A stretch of DNA of 64,000 bases. Origin: Oscillospiraceae bacterium (GTDB lineage Bacteria > Bacillota > Clostridia > Oscillospirales > Ruminococcaceae). Position 1 is the first letter of the stretch, and the number at the start of each line of letters is the position of its first letter. Of the stretch, positions 14,218 to 32,848 are shown piece after piece. Below the pieces are notes generated by a model, which saw nothing but the letters and a program-made list of their open reading frames with translations, did no database searches and was not told the DNA's origin. The stretch is taken from assembly GCA_017439985.1 (NCBI GenBank), contig JAFSIC010000062.1:1-64000 (forward strand), given 5' to 3'. The position numbers and the translations under genes are program-made.

Positions 14218-14246
14218 GCATATCATATCCAGCTTTTTCATATAGA
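14218..14246 (+). promoter_or_regulatory. Sigma-E-type promoter of sipL-spoIVA
   Basis: GCATATC, 14 bases, CATATAGA. This resembles the sigma-E consensus with the same 14-base spacing as the spoIID promoter, and it is the expected regulator of spoIVA. Confidence 0.6.
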
Positions 14247-14287
14247 TGGGACGGAAGCTATTCGATGAAACAGGAGGAGAGAAGACT

Positions 14288-15837: not shown

Positions 15838-17043
15838 ATGGAAGGAAGGATCTATCGGGATATGGCTCAGCGAACGGAGGGCGATATCTACATTGGTGTC
15901 GTTGGTCCCGTTCGCAGCGGCAAATCCAGTTTTATCAAACGATTTATGGAGACGGCGGTTCTGCCTCGCATGGAAAATGATTTTCGGAGAGATCGGGCCA
16001 TTGATGAGCTACCTCAGTCTGCAGCGGGAAAAACCATCATGACCACGGAACCGAAATTTATCCCCGAAGAAGCAGTGCGTCTGGACATGGAGGACGGCGC
16101 GCGGATGAACGTTCGTCTGATCGACTGTGTGGGTTATATCGTGCCCAGTTCTCTGGGCTACATTGAAAATGACCAGCCGCGCATGGTGCGGACTCCGTGG
16201 TTTGAAGAAGCCATTCCCTTTAACATGGCGGCGGAGCTGGGCACACAGAAAGTGATTCGGGAACATTCCACTATCGGGCTGGTCATCACCACGGATGGCA
16301 GCATCAGCGACATTCCCCGCGAAGAATATGAGGAAGCAGAACAGCGGGTCATTGAGGAACTGCAGGAGCTGGAGAAGCCCTTTGTTGTACTGTTGAACTG
16401 CCGCGAGCCTGAGAGCAAAACAGCTCAGGAGTTAGCAAAGCGTCTGCAGGAGAAGTATCTGGTGCCGGTTCTGCCAATCAACTGTCTGGACCTCAGCGAA
16501 GAGGAGATTCGGGAGATTCTGGCACAGGTGCTGTCCGAATTTCCTATCAAGGAGATCTGTATTGATCTTCCGCGTTGGATCGTGGTGCTGCCAAACGATC
16601 ACTGGCTGAAGCGTGCGGTTTTCCAGTGTATTACCGAGGTTTCACAGTCGATTCAACGGCTGAATCATGTGCGGGAACAGCTGAAAGAGCTGGAGAACTG
16701 CCCACAGATCAAGCAAATCAGCGTGGATTCCGTGGATCTGGGCAATGGCAGCGTCAAGCTGACGGTCAGTGTGGAACCAAAGCTGTTTTATCAGGTACTG
16801 GGTGAAAGTACGGGTCTTCACATCAGCAACGAGGAAGAACTGATCCCTTGTATGGTGGAACTTGCAAAAATCCGTCGGGACTATGAGAAAATCAAGGGTG
16901 CGATGGAGGAAGTGCAGGCCACCGGTTATGGCATTGTTATGCCATCTTTGGAGGAACTGCGCTTGGAAGAACCGGAGATCGTCAAACAAGGCGGACGCTA
17001 TGGCGTAAGACTGAAAGCTTCTGCGCCGTCGATACATATATGA
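15838..17043 (+). CDS. spoIVA: SpoIVA, 5' part (codons 1-400) interrupted by an intervening element
   Basis: The N-terminal four-fifths of the coat-basement ATPase SpoIVA. Walker A is GPVRSGKSS (about residue 22), the conserved GKTIMTTEPKF segment follows, then RLIDCVGY as Walker B. The protein matches the family up to ASAPSIH at residue 400 and then ends after one extra Ile at a stop codon inside the element, giving a 401-residue truncated product. The missing C-terminus, needed for SpoIVA assembly and forespore targeting, is encoded at 32572-32848. Joining bases 15838-17036 to 32572-32848 gives 1476 nt, 491 residues, in frame. GGAAGGAGAG precedes the ATG. In this arrangement the cell cannot make complete SpoIVA. 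Confidence 0.93.
   Translation: MEGRIYRDMAQRTEGDIYIGVVGPVRSGKSSFIKRFMETAVLPRMENDFRRDRAIDELPQSAAGKTIMTTEPKFIPEEAVRLDMEDGARMNVRLIDCVGYIVPSSLGYIENDQPRMVRTPWFEEAIPFNMAAELGTQKVIREHSTIGLVITTDGSISDIPREEYEEAEQRVIEELQELEKPFVVLLNCREPESKTAQELAKRLQEKYLVPVLPINCLDLSEEEIREILAQVLSEFPIKEICIDLPRWIVVLPNDHWLKRAVFQCITEVSQSIQRLNHVREQLKELENCPQIKQISVDSVDLGNGSVKLTVSVEPKLFYQVLGESTGLHISNEEELIPCMVELAKIRRDYEKIKGAMEEVQATGYGIVMPSLEELRLEEPEIVKQGGRYGVRLKASAPSIHI
17032..17036. other. attL crossover core
   Basis: ATACA within spoIVA codons 399-400. The same five bases occur at 32567-32571. Exchange here restores SIHMMRAD, the conserved SpoIVA sequence. Confidence 0.75.
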
Positions 17044-17129
17044 GGTATCAAAAAGAAGTTTCAAATTTGCAAGGTGCTCTGACAGCGTGAAGCCAACATA
17101 CGATTTTACCTATAGGGTAGAGCCTTATA

Positions 17130-17157
17130 TTGAACTTCTCGCTATCTAATGTACTAT
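17130..17157 (+). promoter_or_regulatory. Candidate promoter of the element's repA operon
   Basis: TTGAAC and TACTAT with a 16-base spacer. Confidence 0.4.
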
Positions 17158-17209
17158 ATGCGTTGCAATCGATCAATATGACAGGGAATGGGACAGATGG
17201 AGGTCACTT

Positions 17210-18094
17210 ATGAATCAACTGTCTCATAACAATTATTACTATGGCAAAGAAGCAGAACAGTACACGTTTTATCGAATTCCAAAGGCACTGTTTACAGATG
17301 AAAAATATCGAGGATTATCTTCTGATGCAAAGCTTCTTTACAGCATGATGCTGGATCGTATGGGTCTTTCCGTCCAGAATCATTGGTTCGATAAAGAGAA
17401 TCGAGCCTATATTTATTTCACCCAAAGAGAGGTTCAGGAAGTGTTGGACTGTGGTCATAACAAAGCGAATACTCTCTTCGCAGATTTGGAACGAGTTGGT
17501 CTCGTCGAGCGCAAGAGACAGGGTCTTGGACGACCGGACATGATCTTCGTGCTGAAGTTTTCAACAAGTGAGAAGAAAGAAGGAAATCCAAAAAACCTCA
17601 ATGAGGAGTTCAATTATCCTAAAAAGAAACATCAGTCTCTCCCAAAAGAGGAAGGAAATAATACTGAGAAGAATAAGACTGAGTATAACGATAACAATCC
17701 ATCAATCAATGAACTGATGGATGAGGATGAGATGGATGGGTTGTGTGAATTACTTCACAGGAATATTGACTACGAAATCCTGAGAAAAAAGTCGGGCGCG
17801 GACGCAGAAATGGTCGATGAAATTGTTAACCTGTTGGAAGATGTTCTGCGTTCTCGAAGGGAAGAGGTTCGTATAGGTTCTGCAGTCTATCCTAAAGAAG
17901 TGGTGAAAAACCGAATTCTGAAACTGAACAGTGAACATATTCTGTATGTTATCGACTCGCTTAAAAATACCAGAACAGAAATCGGAAATATTTATTCATA
18001 CTTGTTAACGTCTTTGTACAACGCTCCGACGACGATGGATTGCTTTTGGGCAACACAACTCTGTCGAGACAAGAAAAAGGTGAAAAATGCGTAG
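17210..18094 (+). CDS. RepA_N-type replication initiator
   Basis: A 294-residue protein with the N-terminal winged-helix domain of plasmid and ICE initiators (about residues 15-125: FYRIPKALF, LSSDAKLLYSMMLDRMGLS, YFTQREVQEVLDCGHNKA, LGRPDMIFV). A charged linker and an unassigned C-terminal part follow. Such proteins open an origin for theta replication; this suggests the excised circle could replicate, at least transiently. GGAGG 6 bases upstream of the ATG. Its stop overlaps the next start by 8 bp, and it begins a five-gene operon running to 21353. Confidence 0.82.
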   Translation: MNQLSHNNYYYGKEAEQYTFYRIPKALFTDEKYRGLSSDAKLLYSMMLDRMGLSVQNHWFDKENRAYIYFTQREVQEVLDCGHNKANTLFADLERVGLVERKRQGLGRPDMIFVLKFSTSEKKEGNPKNLNEEFNYPKKKHQSLPKEEGNNTEKNKTEYNDNNPSINELMDEDEMDGLCELLHRNIDYEILRKKSGADAEMVDEIVNLLEDVLRSRREEVRIGSAVYPKEVVKNRILKLNSEHILYVIDSLKNTRTEIGNIYSYLLTSLYNAPTTMDCFWATQLCRDKKKVKNA

Positions 18095-19259
18095 AAAGTT
18101 TTATACCGAGCCACGACAACATCGCATCTATGCCCTCATTGATAGGGAGTTGAAAGTAGCCTTTGTGGGCAAGAGCTACGCGCGGGATTTGTCCTCATTG
18201 TATTCAAAGCATGTTAACGGCCGCAGCTATCACACCGCTGACTACTTTGGCAAAGAGCCGCCGAAAGTCAAGCCTGAGTTGTTGATTCTGGAGGAGGTAC
18301 ACTGTACAGGAGCGGTGGCATACAAACACGTCGTGGCATGGTCATTATATCTGGAGGAGCATGGCTTTCTGATGCTGACTCAGACTGGCACCATGCTCTA
18401 CAGTGAACAATTGCTGCCGGAGACACAGGAAATCTACGACAGTATTTCACAGCAAGCAATCGAGGAAGTAATGCAGAGGACTGCTTCTTTGACACGGAAT
18501 CCCCAAAAAGAAAAAGTTGTGCGCCAGAAAGTGCAGAAAGTATCAAAACCGAAGCTATCCATTCGCGTGGACAAACAGGATAAGGACATATTCATGGAGC
18601 TGAAACGAGGCATGGGTGTGACACAGAGGGAGGTGTTCCACTTGCTGTTGGATGGAGTTGTTTTTGATCATGAAGGAAACTATATTCCGCTGATTCGTCG
18701 CCAGAAAAATCAGATTCAGGATCTGGAACAAGAGGTTCAGAATCTGAAAAATCAGCTGGCCGAGGAGCGTATGAGTAAGAAACACGATGGCCGTATCCGA
18801 GAGATCCTTAATCATGCCAAGACAGTGACAGGAAAGTATGTACAGATGCTGATGCAGGATGTGTATTATCTGGATGATGCTTTACGTCCCGTACGAAAGC
18901 CGCGCAACAATATCCATGACTTCCCGTACCCAATCGAAGACGGACATGCAGTCATTCAGCTGGAAGAGATTATTTACGGCAGCAGTACAGGGATGGTTTT
19001 CGTTCTCGGTTGGACGGAGGATGAAAAACCCATCAAACTACGGCACTACGGCAAGCGGGAATTTTTGGGGTCTGATCCACGTGTGAGTAGCTATGCTGTG
19101 CGGGGAACATGGTGGCAGGTCCACTACCGTATTAATAAGGACGGCGCGGCTGACCTGATGGCTGCTCTGCCGCTTCCACCGAAGGCAGAACAAGCGCCCG
19201 AAAAGACAAGAACAGCGTTGGATATAGCGATCAACGAGATCGAACGACAAAAGGAGTAG
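18087..19259 (+). CDS. Coiled-coil protein, unrecognised (GIY-YIG-like N-terminus?)
   Basis: A 390-residue protein. The first ~110 residues carry IYALI...VAFVGKS...LYSKHVNG, which loosely recalls a GIY-YIG nuclease domain, but catalytic residues cannot be confirmed. Residues about 175-250 resemble a ribbon-helix-helix-like segment (LSIRVDKQDKDIFMEL) followed by a coiled coil (QDLEQEVQNLKNQLAEE). The C-terminal third (WTEDEKPIKLRHYGKREFLGSD) is unassigned. Overlap with repA suggests a role in element maintenance. Function unknown. Confidence 0.72.
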   Translation: MRRKFYTEPRQHRIYALIDRELKVAFVGKSYARDLSSLYSKHVNGRSYHTADYFGKEPPKVKPELLILEEVHCTGAVAYKHVVAWSLYLEEHGFLMLTQTGTMLYSEQLLPETQEIYDSISQQAIEEVMQRTASLTRNPQKEKVVRQKVQKVSKPKLSIRVDKQDKDIFMELKRGMGVTQREVFHLLLDGVVFDHEGNYIPLIRRQKNQIQDLEQEVQNLKNQLAEERMSKKHDGRIREILNHAKTVTGKYVQMLMQDVYYLDDALRPVRKPRNNIHDFPYPIEDGHAVIQLEEIIYGSSTGMVFVLGWTEDEKPIKLRHYGKREFLGSDPRVSSYAVRGTWWQVHYRINKDGAADLMAALPLPPKAEQAPEKTRTALDIAINEIERQKE

Positions 19260-19263
19260 AACC

Positions 19264-19566
19264 GTGAGTAAACTGGAAACACCGGAAAGAATTAGTTTTT
19301 GGGCCAAGCAAAGAGTCGAGTACTTATTGGATGTAGAACCACAGCTGTATGCAGAATTGGCTAAAAGCGGCAAGCTGATGGAACATCTTCACGATACTGA
19401 GGAGAAAGCGCAGGCTTGTTATCAGAAAGAAGTTCAGAAACTGTATCGACTCATGGAGCTTGACCCGAAATGGGACTGCATGTCGGAGGAAGAAAAAGAA
19501 CTGCGCCGCTGCTATGCCACAGAAGCGGCAAGGGATATTGTCTGCAACGACTGGATCTGGGTGTAG
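19264..19566 (+). CDS. TnpV-like small protein
   Basis: A 100-residue acidic helical protein starting at GTG, with AAGGAG a few bases upstream. The segment WAKQRVEYLLDVEPQLYAELAKSGKL and the C-terminal AARDIVCNDWIW resemble TnpV proteins carried by many mobile elements of gut Firmicutes. TnpV's biochemical role is not established. It lies in the repA operon. Confidence 0.65.
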   Translation: MSKLETPERISFWAKQRVEYLLDVEPQLYAELAKSGKLMEHLHDTEEKAQACYQKEVQKLYRLMELDPKWDCMSEEEKELRRCYATEAARDIVCNDWIWV

Positions 19567-19576
19567 GGGGGATACG

Positions 19577-20992
19577 ATGCGCTGTTTATCCACAGAAGAA
19601 ATCATCGAACGTGCCCAAAAGAAAATCATTCCACTGGATAGTCAAGAGAAGACAGTGCAGAACATTGCCGCTCTGCTGAGTCTGCATCTGAAACGACTGA
19701 ATGCCTTGGAAGAAGGAGTCGACACAGACTTTCTGCCTTGCTTATCTGAACTCATCATCGCACCCACAGGTTCGGGTAAGACGTACCTCATCAGCAAACT
19801 TGCGGAGGCGGCAGGACTGCCTTTTTACAGTATCGACTGCTCCATGCTGACTCTCAGCGGCTACAAGGGGGTCAACCTCAGTGAGGCATTTCGTTCTCTG
19901 AAAGCCAACTGCACGAGGCCGAGAGAATTTCATCGTTCTGTCATTCTCTTTGACGAGTTTGACAAATGCTCCTACCGAAGCGGAGAAAATGGCAATGTGC
20001 AGCCCAACTTTCTGAAACTGCTGGAGGGCGAGGGCCTGAGCTGTGACGAGAAAATCATCGATACATCGGAGATGCTCTTTCTCTTTGCAGGAGCATTTCA
20101 GGGCCTGGATGAACTGGTGGATCAGCGTTGTCAGAAGAAAAGCATCGGCTTTGCAGCGGAGAGTGAGGAAGAGAAAAAGTCCGCGCCATCCATGGAGGAT
20201 GTGCAGGCATACGGCTTCAGTAGGGAATTGCTCGGTCGAATCGGCTCTTTGCATTGTATTCCAAGAATGGAGATTGAGGATTATATGCGATTGCTGATTG
20301 ATGGAAAGGCGTCGATTGCAGAGAAGTTCGGCTCATTGTTTACAGCGCAAGGAGTGAAATTCTTTGTGGATGAGGAAGCCTGTCTGCATCTTTGTGAGCA
20401 GGCTATGCAGCGAAATATGGGTGCTCGTGCTATGGAAGCAGTCATCAAAGAAAAGGTTCTGCAGGCAGTGAAGGAAATCGACAGCAACACGAGTATCGTG
20501 GAGGCAGTTCTGACCATGAAAGATGGAGAAGCGGTCTTTCGCTATACATACGGTGAGAGGGAGTTTTCTTCTTTGGGCGAAGTGGATGCACCAGATCTGG
20601 AGCCGCCCATGACCGTCTATCTGCGCACAGAAAAGGGCATCAACGACCTCTGCGCCAAGTGGTCGGATTTTGCGGAGGAAGGCAGTGAGGAGATTTGCTA
20701 CTACTTTCTGCAGGTGATCCTGCGATATCTTGTTCTGGAAACCAATTGGAGTGACAGAACCTTGCATTCTGTAGAATCACTTGCCGAACAAACCAAGTGT
20801 CAGAATGTCGAAGGTCTGAAGACGACCTTTGATATTTTGATGGAGGATATTCTGCCTAAGGCAGAGAATAGCAGGGAACACAGTGTTCTGCTGCACTATT
20901 ATTACCTCTACAAGGCGCTGGAAGATACCAATACAAAAGCGATTCTGTGTCAGATGGTCAAGCAAATTAAGTCAAAAAGCAACATTAGGTAG
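19577..20992 (+). CDS. ClpX-like AAA+ ATPase
   Basis: A 471-residue ATPase. Walker A is IIAPTGSGKTYL (about residue 60), Walker B SVILFDEFDKC (about 120), and the sensor and arginine-finger region includes FSRELLGRIGSLHCIP, as in ClpX (substituting for PEFIGRLP). A C-terminal AAA lid domain ends near residue 310, followed by a helical extension of about 160 residues not found in ClpX. There is no N-terminal zinc domain and no evident ClpP-binding loop, so it is more likely a remodelling factor for the element than a protease subunit. GGGGGG before ATG 19577. Confidence 0.82.
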   Translation: MRCLSTEEIIERAQKKIIPLDSQEKTVQNIAALLSLHLKRLNALEEGVDTDFLPCLSELIIAPTGSGKTYLISKLAEAAGLPFYSIDCSMLTLSGYKGVNLSEAFRSLKANCTRPREFHRSVILFDEFDKCSYRSGENGNVQPNFLKLLEGEGLSCDEKIIDTSEMLFLFAGAFQGLDELVDQRCQKKSIGFAAESEEEKKSAPSMEDVQAYGFSRELLGRIGSLHCIPRMEIEDYMRLLIDGKASIAEKFGSLFTAQGVKFFVDEEACLHLCEQAMQRNMGARAMEAVIKEKVLQAVKEIDSNTSIVEAVLTMKDGEAVFRYTYGEREFSSLGEVDAPDLEPPMTVYLRTEKGINDLCAKWSDFAEEGSEEICYYFLQVILRYLVLETNWSDRTLHSVESLAEQTKCQNVEGLKTTFDILMEDILPKAENSREHSVLLHYYYLYKALEDTNTKAILCQMVKQIKSKSNIR

Positions 20993-21002
20993 GAAGATGA
21001 GC

Positions 21003-21353
21003 ATGACAAAAATTGTTTTTACGGAAGCATTGGACGAGTGGACAGAAGCAAGACCGATCTCAATCACGGTACACGAACAATATTGGGAATTTGCAGAGTT
21101 CCATCTGAATTACCTTCGGAATGAAAAACCGGAACTGATGAATACGCTGCTGCTCTGCGGAGAGATGGGGGCTTATTTGAATCTGTTGGGAAAGCTGAAT
21201 GCAACGCTTAAGGATTTTTATTTGGAAGAATATAAACTCGCCTATGGTGAAGTCAGAGAGGACGGTGTTTGGGTCGATGAAGTATTCATACCTGCTATTG
21301 AGGAAAGTGCAGAGGAGGCAGCGGATATCTGCTTCTTCTATGAGGACAAATAA
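21003..21353 (+). CDS. Small acidic protein, possibly TnpV-related
   Basis: A 116-residue acidic protein. The stretch EFHLNYLRNEKPELMNTLLLCGEMGAYL has the same spacing of HL, YL, hydrophobic and small residues as the conserved TnpV core, so it may be a diverged relative of the protein at 19264; this is a weak match by eye. ATG 21003 (six bases after AGGAAG) is preferred to ATG 20997. It is the last gene of the repA operon. Confidence 0.65.
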   Translation: MTKIVFTEALDEWTEARPISITVHEQYWEFAEFHLNYLRNEKPELMNTLLLCGEMGAYLNLLGKLNATLKDFYLEEYKLAYGEVREDGVWVDEVFIPAIEESAEEAADICFFYEDK

Positions 21354-21407
21354 GTAGGGAAGTTGAAAAACGTCTGCCGCCCATCAGAAATTTTACAAAC
21401 AAAATCG

Positions 21408-21436
21408 TGGAAACTCCTGTTGGAACATGCTATAAT
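21408..21436 (+). promoter_or_regulatory. Candidate promoter of the surface-protein gene
   Basis: TGGAAA and consensus TATAAT with a 17-base spacer. Confidence 0.45.
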
Positions 21437-21456
21437 TATTTCGTATAAATTATCGC

Positions 21457-21472
21457 AGAAGGGTACCCTTCT
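21457..21472. promoter_or_regulatory. 16-bp perfect palindrome, candidate operator
   Basis: AGAAGGGTACCCTTCT lies shortly after the predicted transcription start of the GLUG surface-protein gene. Confidence 0.45.
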
Positions 21473-21525
21473 ATGCTGTTGCATAACAACATAATGCCCT
21501 TTCCATCCTAAAGGAGGAATGTGAA

Positions 21526-24500
21526 ATGAAATGGAAGAAAGCATTGAGTATGTTTCTCTCCGCGGTCATGGTGCTGAACAGTTTCCCGCTGTCGGTATTC
21601 GCCCAGGAACAGGAATGCACTCATCACGAACATAATCAAGACTGCGGCTACGTGGAAGCAGTGGCGGAAAGCCCTTGCACCCATGAACACAGCGAGGACT
21701 GCTATAGATCCGTGACCAACTGCATCCATGAACATGTGGATTGCGGATATGTTGCGGCAGTGGCAGAAGTGAGCTGCGGCTGTGTGCCTGCCGAGGACGG
21801 CACACTGACCCATAGCGAAGGCTGCGGCTATGTTGCTGCGCAGGCAGAGGTTTTATGCGACCACCAATGCAGCACGGAAAGCGGCTGCGTGACCGAGGAA
21901 GAAAACTGCCAGCACGTCCATGACGAACTCTGCGGCTACAAGGCAGCTGTGGAAGGCAGTGCTTGCAACTTTGATGCTGAAAACTGCCCAGACTGTTTGG
22001 CAGGAGAAATCACCGAGCCTGCCCCGGTCTGTACCTGTGCCGAGCATTGCACCGCTGAGAACTTCAACGAATACTGCGAAGTCTGCAGCTTAGATTATAC
22101 CCAGTGCGGCGGCACCGAGCGGGCTGTGGGATATGACACAGGCTGGACGATTGAGGATAGCATTCTGAAAGTCACCGGCACCCTCACTGCACTGCCCGTA
22201 GTGGAATACAGTGACATTGAGGTGAAAGAAGGCGGAAACCTGAACCTTGGTGCAGCTAAGGTTACCTGTTATGTGAATAACTCTGGTACAATCAGCAGCG
22301 GTACTTTCGATGAAATCGTGGATAACTCTGGTACAATCAGCAGTGGTACTTTCGATAGAATCGTGCGTAACTCTGGTACAATCAGCGGCGGTACTTTCAT
22401 GAGTAACGTGGTTAACGCTGGTACAATCAGCAGCGGTACTTTCGATAAAATCGTGCATAACTCCGGTACAATCAGCGGCGGTACTTTCTCATCGAAGGTA
22501 TATAATGACTATGGTACCATCAGCAATGCCAAATTTGAGACGGGAGCAAGCCTTGAATTGAGCAGCAAGGCCCCCGAAAGAGTCATCCACTGCGTCAACG
22601 GTGAGGACGTTGCCCTGACCTATAACGCCGCTCTATCTGCGGCTCTTGGCGAAGCGGCTGCATGGTATCAGGGTAGTACTAAGGTAACAGACGGCACAGT
22701 GCCACTCAACTACACCAGATATGTGGGTGAATACACAATCACCTCTGATACCACCTACGGCAAAGTCAACGTTCCCGCAAACGCAAAATACGGCCATAAG
22801 GTTACAATCGCGACGGCTCCCGACGATGGTTATTTGCTGAAGGAACTGACCGTTAAGCAGGGTGATACCAAAGTGGAGGTTGCTGACAATGCCTTCACCA
22901 TGCCCGCAGGTAATGTTACCATCAGCGCAACCTTTACCCTTTGTGCCCACGTCGGCACCACCGATTCCTACGTCAACGGCTTCTGTCCATACGGCTGCTA
23001 TGAGCCTGCAACCCAGAACGGGGATGTCTACGAAATCTCCAACGCCGGCCAGCTGTACTGGTTTGTACAGCAGATCAACTCCGGCAACAACACAATCAAC
23101 GGCAAGTTGACCGCAAATATCGTGGTTAACAAAGGCACCATGACTGCTGAATCCACCGATGCCCGTGCATGGACACTGATCGGATATTATAATAGCAACA
23201 CGGATAATGTACAATACAACGGCACTTTCGACGGTGCCGGTCACACCATCAGCGGTCTGTACTTCAATAACAGTAGGACCAACTGTGTCGGCCTGTTTGG
23301 CAGGAACGGCGGCACCGTGAAGAATGTGGGAGTTATCAACTCTTACTTCAGAGGCGGCACCAATGTCGGCGGCGTGGTGGGCTCTAACAATGGTACCGTG
23401 GAAAACTGCTATAACAGCAGTACCGTCACCGGCTACGACCATGTCGGCGGTGTGGCGGGCAGCAGCAATAGCAGCAAAGCTACCGTCCGGAACTGCTACA
23501 ATACCGGCACTGTCAGCAACACCGACGTCGACATCGACGGCAGCAGGGCTGTCGGCGGCGTGGTGGGCTCTAACGAGGGTTCTACCGTCCGGAACTGCTA
23601 CAATGTCGGCAGCGTCATCATCAGCGACAAATCCATCGAGTTTGTAAATGTCGGCGGCGTGGTGGGCGGTGGCTTGGGAAGAATAACGAACTGCTACTAT
23701 CTTGATACCACTGTACCCAGCGGCGTCAATGGTGAGGATAAGGCTGGTCATGTAGAAGCCAAAACCGCTGAGCAGTTTGCGAGTGGTGAGGTGGCTTATC
23801 TGCTGAACGGCGATCAGAGCAGCATCGTATTCAAGCAGACCATTGATACAGATACGGTTCCAAAATTCACCGGCGACACCGTTTACTACGGCTACACCTT
23901 CTGCGGCGATGACGAGAAGATTTACACCAACAGTTCCTCTGTCTACGACAACAAGCCGGAACACACCCTGACCTACTCCGCAAGCGGCAATGTTATCACT
24001 GTTGCCTGCTCCGCAAACTGCGGTTACACCGGTACCGCTACCATCAGTGCAACCGGAAAGACCTATGACGGATCTCCTGTGGCAGCAACCGTAACCGCAA
24101 ACGGCAAGCTGGAAGGTAATACCATTCCGATCGTTTACGCAGTGAAGGACGGCGAAGCACTGAACGAAGCACCTGTGGAAGTAGGCACTTACACTGCTTC
24201 CATTACCGTGGGTGAGGGTGAGAATGCCGCAACCGCAAGCGTGGAGTTTACCATCACAGCGAGACCTGTCGTGGAAACTCCGTCCTATGATGATTCCGAT
24301 GACGAGGAAGATGTAGAAGAATCCAAAGAGGAGACAATCAAAGTTCCTGTCTCCGGCGATAAGGTTTCCACAAAGACCGAAGCGACGGTCAGCGGCTCAA
24401 CTGCAACAGTCGAAGTTCCATCTGAGAAGAAACTGGAACAGATCCTGGACAATCCAACCGATATTGGTTCCGTTGAGATTGACCTGAGCGGCTTGAATGA

Positions 24501-25047: not shown

Positions 25048-25153
25048 GATAATTTGTGATGTAAAAATTGGAGTTATCTCAAAGAAAATGCTTTACAATC
25101 TTCAGGGGGGAGAGTATGATAAAAGAAAAACAGAAGGAAAAGGAGGAAGAGAT

Positions 25154-26917
25154 ATGAAAAGAATACTGTGTCTGTTGTTGGTGCTTTGCATGCTGTTTGG
25201 TATGGGTGTCAATGCGTATGCGATGCAGATTTTTGTGAAAACTCTGACTGGGAAAACGATCACGCTTGAAGTTGAGCCAAACGACAGCATTGATGATATT
25301 AAGGCGAAGATTCAGGAAAAAGAGGGCGTTCCTCCCGATCAGCAACGTTTGATTTTTGCTGGAAAACAACTGGAAGAAGGAAAAACACTGTCTGACTACA
25401 ATATTCAGAAAGAGAGCACCCTGCATCTGGTATTGAGAGTTCGTGGGAATACATTTGAGTACACAGTTACAGATAGTGAAATATGCGTAGCGACCATTAC
25501 AAAAGTAAATGGAACAATTGGTGAGGCATTGGTTATTCCGGATAAAATTGACGGTTATTCTGTTATTGCGTTTGAAAAAGATGCTTTATCAAACTGCGAC
25601 GTTTTGAAGTATGTGAAGCTGGAAGGCTTGAATAGTCAAAACCTCAAACAAATAGCCAACGACGCATTTGTTTTTACCGGTGCAGAGAATCTTGAAGTTG
25701 TTTATTTGAATACAGAGGTAACGGACAGTGTTAAAGATAAAATTAAAGTAAACTCTGACGTGAAGATCCTCCAATATGTTTCTCTTTCGGACAAATCCAT
25801 CGATGCCTCTATAGCACAAAGCAACGGTACAGTGACTATTGAGTTTGAGAATATTATTCCTGATGGTTATGCCGGATATGGGTATAAAGTTGTCCGCACT
25901 CCTGCTGATACCAATTCGAATATCAATGAGGAGGAAATCTTTGACAGTAATGCAGATGATAAAACTCACTTTGATATTTCGAATGGTACCGTAACCTTTA
26001 CGGATACCTCTGGAGTAGCCGGAAAGCAATACACTTATACGATCACAGCGTACGATCCATTTGGCGGGCAGAGTCAGACTGTTACTTGTGAAATTACCAT
26101 CGAGAGCAATTCCGGCAATGACACTACTGGCGGTAACACCAACTCCGGTGGGGAAGGTACCACCATTCAGCAGCCGTCTACTTCTATTCCGATAGACACT
26201 ACTACCGATGATTCCTGGTACGAAGCAGAGGGAGAAGATAACCATACCTCTTCCTCCGACATGTCCGAAATCATCGAAGAAACCTCCAAAAACGACACTG
26301 ACATCACCATTGACGATGTAAACGAAGATACCACCATCTCCAAAAAAGCGATGGAAAAAGCGATTGAAGAAGAACTGGACATCGAATTCAAAGGAGATGA
26401 CTACACTCTGATTCTGAAAGCGGAAGATGCAGACTTCGTCGGCTTCAAAGGCAACTTCAACCCTTACATCGATACCGATGCAGGTCTGAGCACTACCATG
26501 AAATCCGAGCTGAAGAAAAATGATACCGACCCGACTTATGTTCAGGTTGTAAAAACTAAATTCAGCGGTAAGCTACCTGGTAAGATGGTATTGGAAGTTC
26601 TTCTCGATAAAGAGCTTCGCGGCAGCGAGGTTTATTTCTACTACTGGAATGCTGAGCTGAAACAGTATGAGCTGATCCCTCATACTGTAAAAGGCAACAA
26701 GCTCATCGTTTCTCTGTCTCACTTCTCCACCTACATCATCACCAACGAGCCAATCGTAGGTGCTGTTGTTGTGGAACAGGGTGCGGCAGTAACTGCTCCT
26801 GTTGTTTCTGTTGACAAAGCAAATCCGGAAACCGGCGCAAATGATTTCGTGGGTGTAGCAATGGCTCTGGCAGTTGTATCCTCTATCGGTGCAGTAGTGC
26901 TGAATAAACGCAAATAA
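25154..26917 (+). CDS. Secreted surface protein with an N-terminal ubiquitin domain
   Basis: A 587-residue secreted protein. Residues 1-23 are a signal peptide ending AYA; cleavage there would leave Met24 as the first residue, which is Met1 of a complete ubiquitin domain (24-98 plus Asn99). Next come a BspA-like leucine-rich segment (about 100-195), a fibronectin-type-III-like domain (about 205-320), a Ser/Thr/acidic linker (about 325-400), and a conserved domain (about 405-545) similar in style to the C-terminus of the upstream surface protein. NPETG at 557-561, a hydrophobic stretch and a basic tail (LNKRK) form a sortase-type cell-wall anchor. AGGAGG 7 bases upstream supports ATG 25154. 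The protein should display ubiquitin on the cell surface; its target is unknown. Confidence 0.93.
25223..25450 (+). other. Ubiquitin domain coding segment
   Basis: Encodes 76 residues aligned without gaps to human ubiquitin. By eye there are 11 differences (positions 20, 22, 24, 25, 26, 32, 36, 52, 54, 73, 76), mostly conservative, so about 86% identity. K6, K11, K27, K29, K33, K48 and K63 are kept, as is the L8-I44-H68-V70 patch. The C-terminal Gly-Gly is Gly-Asn and the chain continues, so it is not a normal conjugation tail. Codons match the bacterial neighbours and there is no intron. Confidence 0.95.
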
Positions 26918-26926
26918 CATGTAAAG

Positions 26927-26955
26927 GGAAGGCTCACTTGGAGCCTTCCTTTTTG
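26927..26955 (+). terminator. Terminator of the ubiquitin-protein gene
   Basis: GGAAGGCTC / GAGCCTTCC stem with a five-T tract. Confidence 0.88.
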
Positions 26956-27191
26956 TGATGTGCAAGTACAACAGCCATTTCTTCGAGTCGCAGACGATTG
27001 AGCGCAGCTCAACTCACAAATTCTTTGAATTTGTGAGGGTGGGGTCATAGGGGCTTGCCCTTGAAGTGGCTGAACCGAAAAGTTCAGCCAGTGCTTGCTA
27101 TAACAAAGAAAATGGGGGACAAGAGCTGTTGCGGTTCTTTTTCTCAACGGACATCCATATAAATGGAGCAAAGACATCAAAGAGATGAGGT
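26956..27191. other. Structured non-coding stretch with two perfect hairpins
   Basis: No convincing gene. It holds an 11-bp perfect hairpin at 27013-27037 (CTCACAAATTC, TTT loop) and a 9-bp perfect hairpin at 27067-27090 (TGGCTGAAC, CGAAAA loop), with GC-rich sequence between them. It could be a small RNA, a replication or transfer site, or an insertion relic. Confidence 0.5.
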
Positions 27192-27335
27192 ATGTTCGTG
27201 CAGAAGAAAGAGTTTGCTGTTAAAGATCCAGAATTGCTGCGGGAAGTAATGCTTCTTATCAACAAAAGGCTACGTGAGAGGAACTGTATTTCAGAAGAAA
27301 TGTACCATAAAACAAATGAAATACTGATGGCATGA
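27192..27335 (+). CDS. 47-residue helical protein (mobile-element small protein)
   Basis: Begins MFVQKKEFAVKDPELL and ends NEILMA. The pattern EL.RE.M..IN.RL.E...IS.EMY is shared with the 55-residue protein at 28892-29059, so both belong to one family of short helical proteins; similar ORFs occur, from memory, beside serine recombinases in Firmicute elements. GATGAGG lies just before the ATG and a terminator directly after. A recombination directionality factor or regulator is conceivable but unproven. Confidence 0.65.
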   Translation: MFVQKKEFAVKDPELLREVMLLINKRLRERNCISEEMYHKTNEILMA

Positions 27336-27336
27336 A

Positions 27337-27364
27337 AAATCCCACCGAAAGGTGGGATTTTTTG
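27337..27364 (+). terminator. Element terminator, copy 1
   Basis: AAATCCCACC-GAAA-GGTGGGATTT followed by T-run; nearly the same hairpin recurs at 28792 and 30810. Confidence 0.9.
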
Positions 27365-27411
27365 ATAAAAGAGTCGATAAATGCAGAATTTTTGTATTTG
27401 ATTGCAAAAAC

Positions 27412-27440
27412 TTGATTCTTATAAAAGTTTATGCTATGAT
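27412..27440 (+). promoter_or_regulatory. Promoter of the DUF4143 ATPase
   Basis: TTGATT and TATGAT with a 17-base spacer, 21 bases before the start codon. Confidence 0.6.
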
Positions 27441-27461
27441 TTTACATAAGGGGGGATATTG

Positions 27462-28784
27462 ATGATCAATACCCATAAACTGAAGAAGAGGGATTTGTAT
27501 CTGAAAAAAATCATTGCTTTTAAGGATACAGAGCCTGTCAAAGTGGTTACCGGTATTCGCCGTTGCGGTAAATCCAGTTTACTGAAACTGATGGTCGAAC
27601 ACTTAAAAGAAAGCGGTATCAATGACGAGCAAATCATTGAGATGAACTTTGAATCCCACGATTTCAAGAAAATGACAGCTGATGATTTCTATCATTATGT
27701 GAAAGCAAGAGTGATTCCGCAGAAGAGAATGTATCTTTTCTTTGATGAGTTGCAGCGAATCAAAAATTGGGAAGACACTGTCAATTCCTTCCGCGTGGAT
27801 TTTGATTGTGATATCTATATTACCGGTTCCAATGCATATCTGTTGTCCTCGGAGTATGCAACCTATCTGTCCGGACGATGCGTAGAGATCAAAATGCAGC
27901 CTCTGTCCTTCAAGGAGTTTCTCTATTTCCATGATTTTGAGATCAGAGAAAGTAAAAGTGCATTGGGTGGAACGAGGATGCAAATTGTGGATCAATCCGG
28001 TGAACACTATGAACTCCGCGAAGTATTCGATGCCTATATGCGTTTCGGCGGTATGCCGGGTATTGCGGATGTGGGACTAGATCAGGAAAAGGCAATGGTG
28101 CTGTTGGATGGTATTTATTCCACAGTTATCGTTCGAGATATTCTTGAGAGGGAAAAACGCCGTGGTCAAAGACAAATAACGGATCCGATCTTGCTGCGAA
28201 AAATCGTTCTGTTTCTTGCTGATAATATCGGCAGCAGTGTTTCCGTGTCATCCATCGGAAACACGCTCGTGAGTGAAGGTTTGTTGGAAGACGGTAAACG
28301 AAAGGGAGCTCCGAGCGCTCATACAGTACAGGCCTATGTCAACGCTTTGTTGGAATCTTACTTCTATTATGATATTAAACGTTTTGATATCAAGGGCAGG
28401 GAGTATCTGAGGACCCTGGGAAAATACTATATTGTCGATATTGGTCTGCGAAATTATCTTCTTGGTTTTAGAGATCGTGACAGAGGTCATGCCATCGAAA
28501 ATGTGGTATATTTCGAGTTGCTGCGTAGAGGCTACGACGTAGCAATCGGAAAAGTCGATAATGCAGAAGTCGATTTTATTGCGACGAAAGCGACAGAAAA
28601 AATATATGTACAGGTAACAGAATCGATGATCAGCGAAGATGTCCGTCGTCGCGAATTGGCACCGCTGCAGAAAATCAATGATAATTATGAGAAAATTGTT
28701 TTGTCACTTGAGCCGGGTCTTGATGCGTCATATGAAGGTATCAAATCGCTCAATCTGATTCAGTGGCTGTTGAACGAAGCATAG
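27462..28784 (+). CDS. AAA_14/DUF4143 family ATPase
   Basis: A 440-residue protein with an N-terminal ATPase domain: Walker A VVTGIRRCGKSSLL (about residue 30), Walker B YLFFDELQRI (about 90), ITGSNAYLLS as sensor, then the DUF4143 domain from about residue 205 ending in a restriction-endonuclease-like fold (ENVVYFELLRRGYDV, NAEVDFIA, YVQVTESM). The D-x-D/E-V-D-F spacing suggests a PD-(D/E)XK-type core. The family is widespread in gut bacteria; its role is unknown. ATG 27462 follows GGGGGG. It has its own promoter and terminator. Confidence 0.9.
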   Translation: MINTHKLKKRDLYLKKIIAFKDTEPVKVVTGIRRCGKSSLLKLMVEHLKESGINDEQIIEMNFESHDFKKMTADDFYHYVKARVIPQKRMYLFFDELQRIKNWEDTVNSFRVDFDCDIYITGSNAYLLSSEYATYLSGRCVEIKMQPLSFKEFLYFHDFEIRESKSALGGTRMQIVDQSGEHYELREVFDAYMRFGGMPGIADVGLDQEKAMVLLDGIYSTVIVRDILEREKRRGQRQITDPILLRKIVLFLADNIGSSVSVSSIGNTLVSEGLLEDGKRKGAPSAHTVQAYVNALLESYFYYDIKRFDIKGREYLRTLGKYYIVDIGLRNYLLGFRDRDRGHAIENVVYFELLRRGYDVAIGKVDNAEVDFIATKATEKIYVQVTESMISEDVRRRELAPLQKINDNYEKIVLSLEPGLDASYEGIKSLNLIQWLLNEA

Positions 28785-28791
28785 AGCAGCA

Positions 28792-28835
28792 TTTAGAACA
28801 AAAATCCCACCGAAAGGTGGGATTTTTGTTCTAAA
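28792..28835. terminator. Element terminator, copy 2 (20-bp perfect stem)
   Basis: The shared AAATCCCACC-GAAA-GGTGGGATTT hairpin extended to a perfect 20-bp stem (TTTAGAACAA... ), between convergent genes. Confidence 0.9.
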
Positions 28836-28891
28836 GAGAGGGAAAACGCGGTGTGTTATATCCAGTTTATATTAGTGTTAAATGATTACAA

Positions 28892-29059
28892 TTATAAGTT
28901 ATCAAGTTTCATAGTAAGAAATCGCTCTTTGGCAACGCGATAGATTTCATGTGTGAGCTGTCCTTCCTCATATAACCTTTGATTTAAGTTGAGCATAATT
29001 TCCCGTGCCAGTTCGCTCCGGTTTTCAGTTGGGAGAGTATATTGTTTATGATTTTTCAT
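28892..29059 (-). CDS. 55-residue helical protein, related to the 47-residue protein
   Basis: The only minus-strand gene of the element. It begins MKNHKQYTLPTENRSEL and has REIMLNLNQRLYEEGQLTHEIY, the same pattern as the small protein at 27192. AAAGGGG precedes its ATG by 7 bases. Lying opposed to the rest of the element, it could be a regulator such as a directionality factor; this is inference. Confidence 0.65.
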   Translation of the reverse strand: MKNHKQYTLPTENRSELAREIMLNLNQRLYEEGQLTHEIYRVAKERFLTMKLDNL

Positions 29060-29194
29060 AGTATCGCCCCTTTCGCTGCTTCCATTATAATTCTTGAAAA
29101 AATATGGAGCAAGGGTGAATGTCCCAAGTTTTGGACAAATGGAGCTTGCCGAAAGGAGGATCTTTTGATAAGATATTAGTGAGGTGAAGACTTG

Positions 29195-29821
29195 ATGAAT
29201 GAGGAAATGAAGAAAAACGAAGAATTGATTCTTGAAAAAATTGACGAGTTAAAAGATTGTATTTGGGGCTTAAATCAGGATATTCATGAGAGTTTTTATG
29301 ACTATAGTTCAAAAAACGGATATCAATATAATGAGGAAAAAGCTACTGTATTGATTCAATCCATATTGAAGAATTGTGATAAAGATAAACAGTTGTTTTG
29401 TGAAGTGATGCCTGTATTTTTAGAGCTCACATTGAAGTTTTTATTTATTGCTTGTAACACGGATGACTGGATTTACTCCAGTTTTGTAAAACTGAGTGAA
29501 ACCGTGACCAACGGAGGTTTGGGTAGACAAAGTACGTGGGATATCTTAATCGGTGATGAGGAAGAAAATCTAAAACGTGTTTTTGGTGAAGTAATCAATG
29601 AAAAATGCCAATATCTCAGTAAAATTATTGCATCAGAGGATTTATCTGACTTTCCAATGTATGTGAAAGAAGCAATCAAAAAGCATCTTAGTGATAATGG
29701 TTTGAATTACCTTTGTAGTGATTCTGCGACAGGCGAGATTCTGCATGCACTGGAAACTCTTCAAAATGATCTCTATTGGAATAATAGATTCCGTATTGAA
29801 TCAAGAGGGCATCAAAAATGA
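29195..29821 (+). CDS. Unrecognised helical protein, first of a coupled pair
   Basis: A 208-residue, acidic, AT-rich gene product with no signal peptide or membrane helix, and a predicted helical N-terminus (LILEKIDELKDCIWGL). GAGGTG 8 bases upstream supports ATG 29195. Its TGA overlaps the ATG of the next gene by 4 bp, so the two are translationally coupled and probably work together. Lower GC than the chromosome suggests transfer. No family recognised. Confidence 0.75.
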   Translation: MNEEMKKNEELILEKIDELKDCIWGLNQDIHESFYDYSSKNGYQYNEEKATVLIQSILKNCDKDKQLFCEVMPVFLELTLKFLFIACNTDDWIYSSFVKLSETVTNGGLGRQSTWDILIGDEEENLKRVFGEVINEKCQYLSKIIASEDLSDFPMYVKEAIKKHLSDNGLNYLCSDSATGEILHALETLQNDLYWNNRFRIESRGHQK

Positions 29822-30747
29822 TGCCAAATGAGAAAAATAAGAAGCAACCAAAGCTTAATTTGGAATATAATGCGAATTTTCAGAAGTTTATTTTTGATAA
29901 GCTGGGGAATGACGAAGAAGAGGGAAGAATTCTTCGCAGGGTGAAGGCTTTTACAGAAGATGATATGAAAGCTCGCTTTGATGGAAGAACGAGACGATGG
30001 CTTTTGAAAGAGTTGAACCGATGGAAACAACTTGTGCATAAGGGAGGAACGCACGAAATTAAAGCTACTTTGCAAAATCTTCAAATGCTCTGCAATGCAA
30101 GCGACGCAACACCGAATCAGGTTCTTTTATCTAAGATTCCTCCTCAGGATAAAAAAGTAGTAACTTTGTTGTCTTTGGATGCATTACAACAGCTGGAAGA
30201 TACAATTCGTATTACCAAATTTCAAAATCAGTTCAAAAAATATATCCCTGTTTTTTATAACGAGAGAGCCATGTATTCCGGTGTTTTGCTTGTTATTGGC
30301 GAAAGAATAGCTGAGGATATGAATGTGATATTCCAATTTCGACATTACTATTTTAACGGGCAAGAATCATCGGTTCTTTCATCGATGTCCGGTCGGATTA
30401 TGCCTGCTGCTTATAGTGATAGTAAAAAATATAATATAACACACCTGGAAAAGAATAAGTTTAGCGGCTATATGAGTTTACAGGATTTTTACGAGGAGAA
30501 TCGTGTGAAAGCTATGAACTACCTGAAACAAGAGAATGACGAGATCCGAAGTTTCTATCAGATGTTTCCGGAATGGACAGCAAAGCAAAAAGAGGCAGGA
30601 GAAAATCTCCTGTACTGGATTGAACCTACTGGCGAATCCATGTTGCCTTTGAATGCACAAGAAGTCAAAGCGTTTAAAAAAACAGGAAGTTTTCTGGATT
30701 TCAAAACACAAAATGCAGAGACCGCTGCACGAAAAAAATCAAAATAG
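29818..30747 (+). CDS. Unrecognised basic protein, second of a coupled pair
   Basis: A 309-residue protein with a Lys-rich N-terminus and C-terminus, no membrane segment, and no motif I recognise. It is coupled to the 208-residue gene by a 4-bp overlap and has AGAGGG 8 bases upstream. The pair has a shared terminator at 30810. Two coupled unknown genes beside a recombinase are typical of cargo such as defence or toxin-antitoxin modules, but nothing in the sequence proves this. Confidence 0.75.
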   Translation: MMPNEKNKKQPKLNLEYNANFQKFIFDKLGNDEEEGRILRRVKAFTEDDMKARFDGRTRRWLLKELNRWKQLVHKGGTHEIKATLQNLQMLCNASDATPNQVLLSKIPPQDKKVVTLLSLDALQQLEDTIRITKFQNQFKKYIPVFYNERAMYSGVLLVIGERIAEDMNVIFQFRHYYFNGQESSVLSSMSGRIMPAAYSDSKKYNITHLEKNKFSGYMSLQDFYEENRVKAMNYLKQENDEIRSFYQMFPEWTAKQKEAGENLLYWIEPTGESMLPLNAQEVKAFKKTGSFLDFKTQNAETAARKKSK

Positions 30748-30809
30748 AAGGATGTTTTGTCCTCCTATCTTTTCTCAGTGTAAGGTAAACAGAACTTTTA
30801 ATATATTAG

Positions 30810-30840
30810 AAAATCCCACCGTAAGGTGGGATTTTTATTT
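30810..30840 (+). terminator. Element terminator, copy 3
   Basis: AAAATCCCACC-GTAA-GGTGGGATTTTT; one loop base differs from copies 1 and 2. Confidence 0.9.
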
Positions 30841-30858
30841 TTCTCATCCTAAAAACTA

Positions 30859-30887
30859 TTTACTTCTAAAATAAAATATGGTAATAT
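30859..30887 (+). promoter_or_regulatory. Candidate promoter of the recombinase
   Basis: TTTACT and TAATAT with a 17-base spacer. It is sigma-A-like and weak; no sigma-E or sigma-K match was found here. Confidence 0.45.
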
Positions 30888-30920
30888 GAAATCAAAGAAG
30901 TAAATGAGAGGAGTTCTGTA

Positions 30921-32576
30921 ATGGATTTATTGATGATTCACGATGCAATTCAAAATGGTAAAACGATCTTTGATCTTAAACTTCGTGTAACCTATTATGC
31001 GCGAGTATCAACCGGGAAAGATGCACAGCTTCATTCGCTCAAAGGACAGGTTGATTATTATACGGATTATATCAACAAAAATCCAAATTGGACCTTCGTG
31101 CCGGGATACGTGGACGAAGGAATCAGTGGAACGAGTATTAAAAAAAGAGAGAATTTCCTCAAGATGATGGACGATGCAAAGCTGGGTAAATTTGATCTTA
31201 TTGTGACCAGAGAAATCTCGCGCTTTTCCCGAGATACCATTGATAGTCTCCTGTGTTCCAAGCAACTTTTATCCAATGGGGTCGGTGTTTTCTTTGAAAA
31301 CGATAATCTTAATACGCTGACGCCGGATGCAGAATTCCGTTTGACAATTATGGCGAGTCTGGCTAAGGAAGAAGTACGAAAAACATCCAAGCGAGTGAAA
31401 AGTGGATTGGATCATTCCAGAAACTCCGGAAAGGTGCTGGGCAATGCGAGTATCCTCGGATATGATAAGTGTGATGGTAAATTAACAGTCAACGAAGAAC
31501 AGGCATCAATTGTAAAAATGATTTTTGAGCAGTATGCAACAGAAAATAAAGGACTGAGAGCGATCAGTACTTGGTTGGCGGAAAATGGTTATCAGAATAC
31601 AAAGGGAAAGCCATATTCTACCTCGACACTGAAAAATATTATTCAGAACATAAAATATAAAGGTTATTACTGCGGCAACAAGACGACCAAATTGGCTCAT
31701 GATATGGATGTTGTCATGCACATCCCGAAAGAAGAGTGGATTGTTTATAAGGATGAAAGCGGTGAAGTTGTCCCTGCTATCGTTTCAGAAGAGCTGTGGG
31801 ATAGGGCAAATGAAATCCTCGCGAATCGCAGTAGAAAAATGTCTGCAGAGGATAAAACCAGTTATCAAAATAAATATGCCTACTCCGGAAAAATTATCTG
31901 TACTGAACATGGTTCCGCTTACCATCGCAGTGCTTACAACTATAAAGGCAAGAGCAAAGAAGTTTGGCAGTGCAAAGAATACGTTGCCCATGGTAAAAAA
32001 GGCTGTACTATGCCGGTTATTTACACGGCGGAACTGAATGAAATCATGCGGCAAATCTTTGATATGATCGTTCAAGATAAAGATAAAATCATTGAGAAGA
32101 TGGTGGAGGTCTACAAAAGTATCAGTGCAAAATCGATGATTCAGTCCGATATTGCAAAGCTGGAAGTTGAAATTGGAGTGCTGGAAAAAAGGCAAGATTC
32201 TCTTCTGGATTTGTATGGTGACGGAACACTCACCAGAAAAAACTTTGAGAAGAAAAATAATGAGTGCAATGTCAAGATCGAAGAGCTGGAAAAGAAAATC
32301 GAGGACTTGAAGGAACAGCAGATCAAGAATGACAAGCTGAATGAGTCGATGGAAACGCTCCGTTCCATCATCACAAAAGAACTGAACTTTGAAGACGGCA
32401 TGGACAACATGTTGGTCGATAAGTTTGTTGATCGTATCGAAGTCTTCAAGACAGACAAAGAAAAAGAAATCAAGTTAAAAGTGTATGTAAAACCATTAGA
32501 AAACAAAATGCTCCCATTCCATATCAAACGAAATCGAGGCAAAGAAGCTTCTGTTTGCTGCGAACAATACACATGA
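30921..32576 (+). CDS. Large serine recombinase of the spoIVA element
   Basis: A 551-residue large serine recombinase. The resolvase domain carries the nucleophile Ser30 in YARVST and the arginine-rich EISRFSRDTID motif. A recombinase domain (about 185-300; LGYDKCDGKLTVNEEQ, ISTWLAENGYQNTKG) is followed by a zinc ribbon (IICTEHGSAYHR ... WQCKEYVAHGKKGC) and a coiled coil (about 400-480; EELEKKIEDLKEQ). These features match integrases that recombine short att sites and need a directionality factor for excision. AGAGGAG precedes the ATG by 7 bases. The right att core (32567-32571) lies in its last two codons, so excision to a circle would replace Thr551 by a new 37-residue tail ending at a stop at 17147. 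Confidence 0.95.
   Translation: MDLLMIHDAIQNGKTIFDLKLRVTYYARVSTGKDAQLHSLKGQVDYYTDYINKNPNWTFVPGYVDEGISGTSIKKRENFLKMMDDAKLGKFDLIVTREISRFSRDTIDSLLCSKQLLSNGVGVFFENDNLNTLTPDAEFRLTIMASLAKEEVRKTSKRVKSGLDHSRNSGKVLGNASILGYDKCDGKLTVNEEQASIVKMIFEQYATENKGLRAISTWLAENGYQNTKGKPYSTSTLKNIIQNIKYKGYYCGNKTTKLAHDMDVVMHIPKEEWIVYKDESGEVVPAIVSEELWDRANEILANRSRKMSAEDKTSYQNKYAYSGKIICTEHGSAYHRSAYNYKGKSKEVWQCKEYVAHGKKGCTMPVIYTAELNEIMRQIFDMIVQDKDKIIEKMVEVYKSISAKSMIQSDIAKLEVEIGVLEKRQDSLLDLYGDGTLTRKNFEKKNNECNVKIEELEKKIEDLKEQQIKNDKLNESMETLRSIITKELNFEDGMDNMLVDKFVDRIEVFKTDKEKEIKLKVYVKPLENKMLPFHIKRNRGKEASVCCEQYT
32567..32571. other. attR crossover core
   Basis: ATACA, identical to 17032-17036, positioned at the junction between recombinase and the spoIVA 3' part. 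Confidence 0.75.
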
Positions 32577-32848
32577 TGCGTGCCGATATTACTACGGAGG
32601 TTTCGCCCATTGTCGGCAGCGAAAAGCAGTCTGAGGAGCTGGTGAAATATCTGCTCCATGAATTTGAGGAAGATCCGGTAAAGATCTGGGACTCCAACAT
32701 CTTTGGAAAATCGCTGCACGAATTAGTCAACGAAGGTTTGCACAACAAGCTTTACCGTATGCCCGCCGATGCGCGTCTGCGCCTGCAGGAAACCATCGAG
32801 CGTATCATCAACGAGGGCTGTAACGGATTGATTTGCATTATTTTATAA
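32572..32848 (+). pseudogene. spoIVA: SpoIVA, 3' part (codons 401-491)
   Basis: The displaced C-terminal 91 residues of SpoIVA, starting MMRADITTEVSPIVG and ending with IINEGCNGLICIIL, typical of the SpoIVA C-terminus. The open frame extends upstream into the recombinase gene but has no proper ribosome-binding site or SpoIVA-like sequence there, so it should not be expressed on its own. It becomes functional only when the element is removed. All conserved C-terminal positions appear intact and there is no frameshift, so it is under selection or only recently separated. Its own terminator follows. Confidence 0.93.

Follow-up and report, generated by a model that had tools for sequence, protein, structure and literature searches.

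The spoIVA locus of an Oscillospiraceae bacterium raises the question whether a sporulation gene that is cut in two by a mobile element is dead, or is put together again during development. The locus lies in a stretch of 64,000 nucleotides (contig JAFSIC010000062.1 of assembly GCA_017439985.1; hereafter the window), which belongs to a draft metagenome-assembled genome (MAG). A 15.5-kb element, carrying the gene of a large serine recombinase, interrupts spoIVA after codon 400. Judged from its sequence and from that of its relatives, it is probably a spoIVA-intervening element of the skin kind, which would be excised in the mother cell.

Structure of the interrupted gene

A first-pass annotation of the window had placed SpoIVA codons 1-400 and 401-491 on the two sides of the element, and both sets of coordinates were borne out by the matches to Pfam and TIGR02836 (Table 1). 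The coding bases of the two parts (1199 + 274) give the 491 codons that had been predicted, and neither part contains an internal stop, in agreement with the earlier statement that both halves are free of frameshifts. The motif ATACA is present at both junctions and the parts join there in frame. A stretch from this joined frame, ASAPSIHMMRADITTEVSPIVGSEKQ, is unbroken in all four congeners compared (G145, G214, G268 and G038). In each of these relatives one continuous SpoIVA chain runs through the insertion spot, and the empty site that the annotation had proposed to look for thus exists. The large serine recombinase described at the right boundary was also recovered; its gene terminates within the right spoIVA junction.

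A second full-length spoIVA, named in the same annotation as an observation that would speak against a switch, was searched for in the window's MAG (1.68 Mb, 63 contigs, 94% complete) and not found; one further PF09547 match remained below the family cut-off. Comparison with the four congeners gave ratios of nonsynonymous to synonymous substitution rates (dN/dS) of 0.06-0.12 for the N-part and 0.02-0.03 for the C-part, with dS partly saturated. The intact pair G145-G038 showed 0.09 and 0.05, respectively. Both parts of the window gene are under purifying selection.

Recurrence of the split in other genomes

The family sample comprised 297 genomes, 249 of which contain the SpoIVA ATPase domain. 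Among the matches listed, at least four spoIVA frames are shorter than 470 amino acids (the window, G029, G150 and G273), and all four are split. The recombinase closest to that of the window in this sample belongs to G150 (53% identical over the whole length), where one contig carries both its gene and the short spoIVA. In G150, one spoIVA gene holds two tandem elements with two recombinases (L053:2084-19526). The N-part, which has the same end codon as in the window, is followed by element A (about 8.8 kb), a middle piece, element B (about 7.2 kb) and the rest of the gene; the middle piece consists of 27 bp between the two cores, or about nine codons. G029 carries an element at the second place only, and its spoIVA parts lie on different contigs.

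At this second place the recombinase frame continues into the last spoIVA piece, giving fused frames of 628 and 624 amino acids (L053:17640-19526 of G150 and L058 of G029). Such fusions would fit the idea that the two spoIVA parts work as separate polypeptides and are never rejoined. This is very improbable for the window, whose N-part has an open frame that ends at position 17043, two codons beyond the core, and whose C-part lacks, at the junction, a start codon of its own that is in frame with a leader; moreover, the congeners compared all possess one intact chain. A gene end supplied by the element, as known from integrases at tRNA sites, was rejected as well, since the left frame stops so soon after the core.

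An alignment of eight recombinases was used to scan 84,980 species genomes, and the best 80 loci were taken; all counts of loci given here refer to these. The gene at the locus, as identified by tblastn, was spoIVA in 28 cases, sigK in 41 and sigG in two (L144, L145), each present in parts, so that 71 loci lie in one of these genes and nine in none of them. In 27 of the 28 spoIVA loci the break in the alignment falls within codons 399-405; in L068 the alignment continues into the recombinase, and the junction is the same by eye. Carriers of the split spoIVA include isolates of Ruminiclostridium papyrosolvens, R. sufflavum, Pseudoflavonifractor capillosus, Flavonifractor and Anaerovorax, as well as MAGs labelled Lachnospiraceae, Defluviitaleaceae and Bacilli. 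When eleven genomes were searched whole with intact SpoIVA, each was found to contain a single N-part and a single C-part but to lack a full copy; in seven of them the two parts share a contig. A second spoIVA elsewhere was rejected on account of this result and of that for the window's MAG.

The insert sizes range from about 3.5 kb (L083) and 6.3 kb (R. papyrosolvens) to about 39 kb (R. sufflavum), 46 kb (Flavonifractor An10) and 119 kb (Anaerovorax). The window itself is part of a draft MAG, for which an assembly artefact or a chimeric contig has to be considered. With the same split in isolates, for example R. papyrosolvens C7, in which both parts lie on one contig, and with half-sites that match at both element ends, this explanation is hardly conceivable.

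Several further arrangements were observed. In G297 (R. papyrosolvens) and G299 (R. sufflavum), about 7 kb separate two pieces of sigK, and spoIVA and sigK both look split; G273 likewise holds split parts of spoIVA and of sigK. In the split sigG (L145:1422-11692; L144 / L061, G219) a related recombinase cuts off the last part of the DNA-binding region of SigG, and in L145 the left frame is not restored by the element. The element is inverted relative to spoIVA in L078, L079 and L082, with the recombinase in the opposite orientation; in L078, the core beside the recombinase end is TG rather than CA (by eye). Some of the nine loci outside spoIVA, sigK and sigG end at a contig edge. Others may represent further split genes: L147:239-2798, where the recombinase lies in a D-Ala-D-Ala carboxypeptidase (PF00768, E 2.1e-49), L088:10001-12000, beside a YtaF-like start (PF02659, E 0.012, under the cut-off), and L085 and L089, beside a short protein that has no Pfam match.

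Attachment sites and phylogeny of the recombinases

The symmetry of attP was expressed as the number of symmetric positions out of 25 around the core (CA; GA at the second place) and compared with 2000 random pairings; the cores for the window, L053, L105 and L140 were set by hand from the junctions. The window attP is symmetric at 16 positions, as against at most 14 in the random pairings, and the predicted circle measures 15,535 bp with CA as the central dinucleotide. Other reconstructed attP sites gave values of 15 for each of the two G150 elements (A and B), 20 for G029 and 22 for R. papyrosolvens, and six further sites reached 21, 20, 19, 20, 19 and 19. Nine of the eleven sites (16-22 of 25) exceeded all random pairings, while both G150 sites stayed within the random range (15 versus random maxima of 16 and 15). 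The attB sites are without symmetry (5-11 of 25). A chance direct repeat was rejected on the strength of the attP symmetry and of the recurrence in other genomes.

A tree of 98 recombinases, three identical pairs among them, was calculated by a quick search with support from the Shimodaira-Hasegawa-like approximate likelihood ratio test (SH-aLRT) only. It left out L052, L105 and L114, which have no usable frame, and gave long-branch warnings that included the window row. The window recombinase falls into a clade of 32 rows (SH-aLRT 99), 27 of them from spoIVA and five from other loci, and the sigK recombinases make up 43 rows of a 46-row clade (SH-aLRT 100). Given the well supported branches, the spoIVA label must have changed at least three times, namely for the main clade, for the pair at the second place or site B (G150 B and G029) and for the Bacilli pair (L140 and L141). 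The Bacilli elements have different arms and a core identical to that of the other spoIVA elements, which suggests that separate recombinase lineages converged on one spoIVA codon. Phage records gave 398 matches, the best with 40.7% identity, and one of 37 viral contigs with related recombinases (L171) matches the C-part of SigK.

A candidate directionality factor

A family of small proteins, mostly 46-61 amino acids long, was found in 23 of the 28 spoIVA element regions, whereas the next family occurred in five. The distance from its gene to the recombinase gene that follows is usually 100-300 bp; both copies in the window lie farther off. With a profile of the family, weaker relatives were also detected next to the sigG, sigK and further recombinases in the set. 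No Pfam family scored above its cut-off, the best being SHOCT_2 (E 0.0064) and GvpG (E 0.0024). The family is a candidate directionality factor.

Upstream DNA was scored with sigma consensus motifs that we take to be those of B. subtilis. For 28 distinct small genes the sigma-E motif reached 11.54, compared with a maximum of 11.14 for 400 permuted motifs and 10.75 on the opposite strand; the sigma-A motif was unremarkable, as 89 of the 400 permuted motifs scored as well. The 23 distinct recombinase genes showed a sigma-A score of 10.00 (permuted maximum 9.17) and an unremarkable sigma-E score (342 of 400 permuted motifs as good). As a class, the upstream DNA of the small gene appears sigma-E-like and that of the recombinase gene sigma-A-like, which corresponds to the arrangement described for the skin element of C. 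difficile.

Sporulation capacity and alternative explanations

The window's MAG holds SigG, SASP, SpoVAC and SpoVAEB, and SpoIIAB-SigF were recognized by eye. SpoIIIAE is present in two overlapping pieces at contig starts (C2:6-527 and C25:5-538), which reflect either an assembly branch or another split.

A number of results weigh against developmental excision. Spo0A, SigE and SigK were not detected in the window's MAG. Both small-gene copies of the window score 11 for sigma-E, close to the shuffled mean of 10.8; the positive control, DNA upstream of spoIVA (n=7), did not reach significance (z 1.5), and a mild sigma-K excess occurs as well (z 3.2 for the small genes, 2.3 for the recombinases). 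Profile searches did not find the small-family gene in the site-B element regions or in L081. Nine of the 80 loci lie outside spoIVA, sigK and sigG, and two lie in sigG, a forespore gene. Among the 37 viral contigs with related recombinases, none carries spoIVA. Finally, the attP pattern of the excised circle had no match in 396 family genomes, the window's own MAG included, with two mismatches allowed, and none in viral contigs, and neither a healed spoIVA nor a circle was found in these assemblies. The lack of an attP match fits excision only in sporulating cells and fits idle elements equally well.

The first of these points leads to a plain knock-out, in which the element landed in spoIVA of a non-sporulating lineage and the gene is dead. 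The small genome and the want of a clear sigma-E site before the small-gene copies of the window point in the same direction. However, the Hsp33-like gene (by eye) that neighbours spo0A in G145 lies 317 bp from the start of contig C63 in the window's MAG; contig C63 ends where spo0A should follow, and spo0A may therefore lie in an assembly gap. A full SigE match was also not found in the congener G214, which is 95% complete, so that absence from a MAG is weak evidence. A dead gene also agrees poorly with the SigG, SASP, SpoVA-family and SpoIIIAE sequences and with two intact, conserved spoIVA parts, and it leaves the recurrence at one codon in 11/11 genomes unexplained. We consider a knock-out unlikely.

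Alternatively, spoIVA might serve as a mere attachment site at which plasmid-like elements and prophages move at a low rate and free of developmental control, spores arising from the few healed cells. The cargo is indeed very different between carriers, with RepA_N and TnpV proteins in the window, phage replication genes near the recombinase in the 119-kb element of Anaerovorax, and transporters and metabolic genes (by eye) in other spoIVA elements, otherwise unrelated between genomes. Furthermore, one conserved gene is a common target of site-specific serine recombinases according to the available part of a survey (PMC10083194). Mere attachment is nevertheless quite unlikely: the related recombinases lie nearly all in sporulation genes, sigma-E-like sites precede the small gene, and the 396 genomes contain no healed or circular form, although this last point is a weak one.

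Excision in the mother cell remains the preferred reading. The skin-like switch proposed in the first-pass annotation agrees with the layout, the in-frame joint, the recurrence of the class (28 of 80 loci), the attP symmetry and the sigma-E-like sites; less backing was obtained for excision itself, with its predicted timing and its predicted confinement to the mother cell, and for the host, in whose MAG three key regulators were not detected. For the class as a whole a developmental switch has good support; for the organism of the window it is only plausible.

Proposed mechanism and significance

Known elements of this kind hit a regulator gene (sigK, gerE) or late-acting genes. SpoIVA forms the first coat layer and is made early under sigma-E, and a spoIVA element would therefore have to leave very early in the mother cell. 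In the proposed sequence of events the recombinase would be made in growing cells, where it would only integrate or stay idle because excision needs the directionality factor. In the mother cell this factor would reverse the recombinase and the element would leave as a circle. Full-length SpoIVA could then be made in time for the basement layer of the coat. The germ line of the forespore would keep the element, which would be inherited in every spore at no cost to the cell. The element would act as a gate at the DNA level before coat assembly.

A wider proposal is put forward tentatively, with slightly more doubt than confidence. According to it, spoIVA would be a major developmental recombination hub of the Clostridia, at which several lineages settled independently at two places ten codons apart. 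Tandem elements would need two excisions joining three pieces. Where both spoIVA and sigK are split, the activation of sigma-K and the coat basement would each be gated by excision via a sigma-E-controlled factor. Related recombinases are found even in sigG. If an element were excised there, the loss would pass into the germ line, and either the element would have to be re-inserted or the case would have to be explained in some other way.

Since the split recurs at one codon across many genera, sporulation genes in gut Clostridia may be interrupted far more often than the handful of printed cases would indicate. Genome surveys may wrongly score such bacteria as non-sporulating, since spoIVA or sigK looks broken. 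With cultivable isolates among the carriers, the question is directly testable; R. papyrosolvens and R. sufflavum are members of a genus that the available part of PMC10701907 describes as spore-forming.

Cargo of the window element

The features of the locus are compiled in Table 1. No phage structural genes were found among ten proteins of the element, whose Pfam matches are to RepA_N, TnpV, AAA and surface proteins, and the element is not classed as a prophage. Its right part has a G+C content of about 36%, compared with about 50% around the element.

The ubiquitin domain of the 609-amino-acid surface-type protein is near-eukaryotic and shares 65 of 76 residues with human ubiquitin. Of the 396 family genomes, 16 contain related ubiquitin stretches, the window's among them, and the literature searched contained nothing on such a protein.

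Table 1. Features of the split spoIVA locus and its element (window positions).
Feature	Position	Strand	Basis
sipL-like gene (SPOCS domain + LysM), adjoins spoIVA upstream	14246..15823	+	PF12673 E 3e-32
spoIVA N-part, codons 1-400, ATPase and middle domains	15838..17036	+	PF09547 E 1.7e-116, PF20438 E 2.1e-61; TIGR02836 6-402 of 492
Left core ATACA, central dinucleotide CA at 17035-17036	17032..17036	+	junction and att comparison
Intervening element, 15,535 bp	17037..32571		junction and att-site comparison
Left arm of attP	17037..17061	+	16/25 positions complementary to right arm
RepA_N / DUF6017 replication initiator	17210..18094	+	PF06970 E 2.6e-28, PF19481 E 6.5e-31
390-aa protein	18087..19259	+	no Pfam match
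TnpV-like protein	19264..19566	+	PF14198 E 2.6e-9
AAA ATPase, ClpX-like	19460..20992	+	PF07724 E 5.5e-13; best NCBIfam ClpX E 3.3e-41, under its cut-off
1173-aa surface-like protein, InlB-B-type and GLUG repeats	21526..25047	+	PF18998 E 1.5e-11; weak CD1107-like PF14283 E 3.4e-4, under cut-off
609-aa protein, ubiquitin domain (residues 46-121) and sortase-type tail (NPETG, by eye)	25088..26917	+	PF00240 E 9.2e-30
Small-family copy 1, 47 aa, candidate directionality factor	27192..27332	+	hmmsearch E 3.9e-17; window rows in model
AAA_14 / DUF4143 ATPase	27459..28784	+	PF13173 E 4.8e-34
Small-family copy 2, 55 aa, candidate directionality factor	28895..29059	-	hmmsearch E 2.2e-17; window rows in model
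309-aa protein	29818..30747	+	no Pfam or PHROG match
Large serine recombinase, 551 aa	30921..32576	+	PF00239 E 4.1e-30, PF07508 E 2.7e-20, PF13408 E 4.8e-8; phrog_95 integrase E 6.3e-115
Right arm of attP, overlaps recombinase gene end	32545..32569	+	att comparison
Right core ATACA, central dinucleotide CA at 32570-32571	32567..32571	+	junction and att comparison
spoIVA C-part, last 91 codons and stop	32572..32848	+	PF20439 E 5.9e-38; TIGR02836 402-492 of 492

Comparison with known intervening elements

A spoIVA case was not found in the open-access library searched; the earlier statement that none is described agrees with this part of the literature. In the accessible text of a survey of serine-recombinase targets, these were enriched in competence genes, and sporulation was named only in a reference title (PMC10083194).

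SP-beta in spsM, vfbin in spoVFB and vrin in spoVR are prophages or prophage-like elements in mother-cell genes, as far as the available parts of the sources describe them (PMC4191935, PMC10747680). They differ from the element of the window in that they occupy other genes and occur in Bacilli, and none of them lies in spoIVA. The fdxN element of cyanobacteria, in which the serine recombinase XisF removes an element from a gene that only a terminal cell uses, resembles it in this principle, whereas lineage and gene are different; the window recombinase matched the XisF model with E 1.3e-30, far under the cut-off, and is not a member.

The gin element in gerE of B. cereus is described in the accessible part of PMC5595907 as an intervening element that has no phage structural genes, and in this it is like the element of the window. 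In contrast, gin targets gerE and has three recombinases. A serine-recombinase element in a clostridial sporulation gene is also represented by yin in yabG of C. botulinum, for which, according to the available text of PMC10747680, the circle and the healed gene were seen by PCR. There, yin was reported from one strain and was excised at all time points, whereas the spoIVA elements recur in many genera.

The closest likeness is to skin in sigK of B. subtilis, C. difficile and C. tetani, which shares the large serine recombinase, the in-frame restoration of a mother-cell sporulation gene and the symmetric att sites, and whose recombinases form a large, sister-like clade in the tree. In C. difficile, as stated in the accessible part of PMC5025042, the recombinase is constitutive and the directionality factor is made only in the mother cell. 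Differences are the target (sigK versus spoIVA), the recombinases, which are 40-55% identical, and the fact that the spoIVA element is known from its sequence alone. The kind itself, skin-like, is already known; new here are spoIVA as the target, the wide recurrence and the unusual two-element form.

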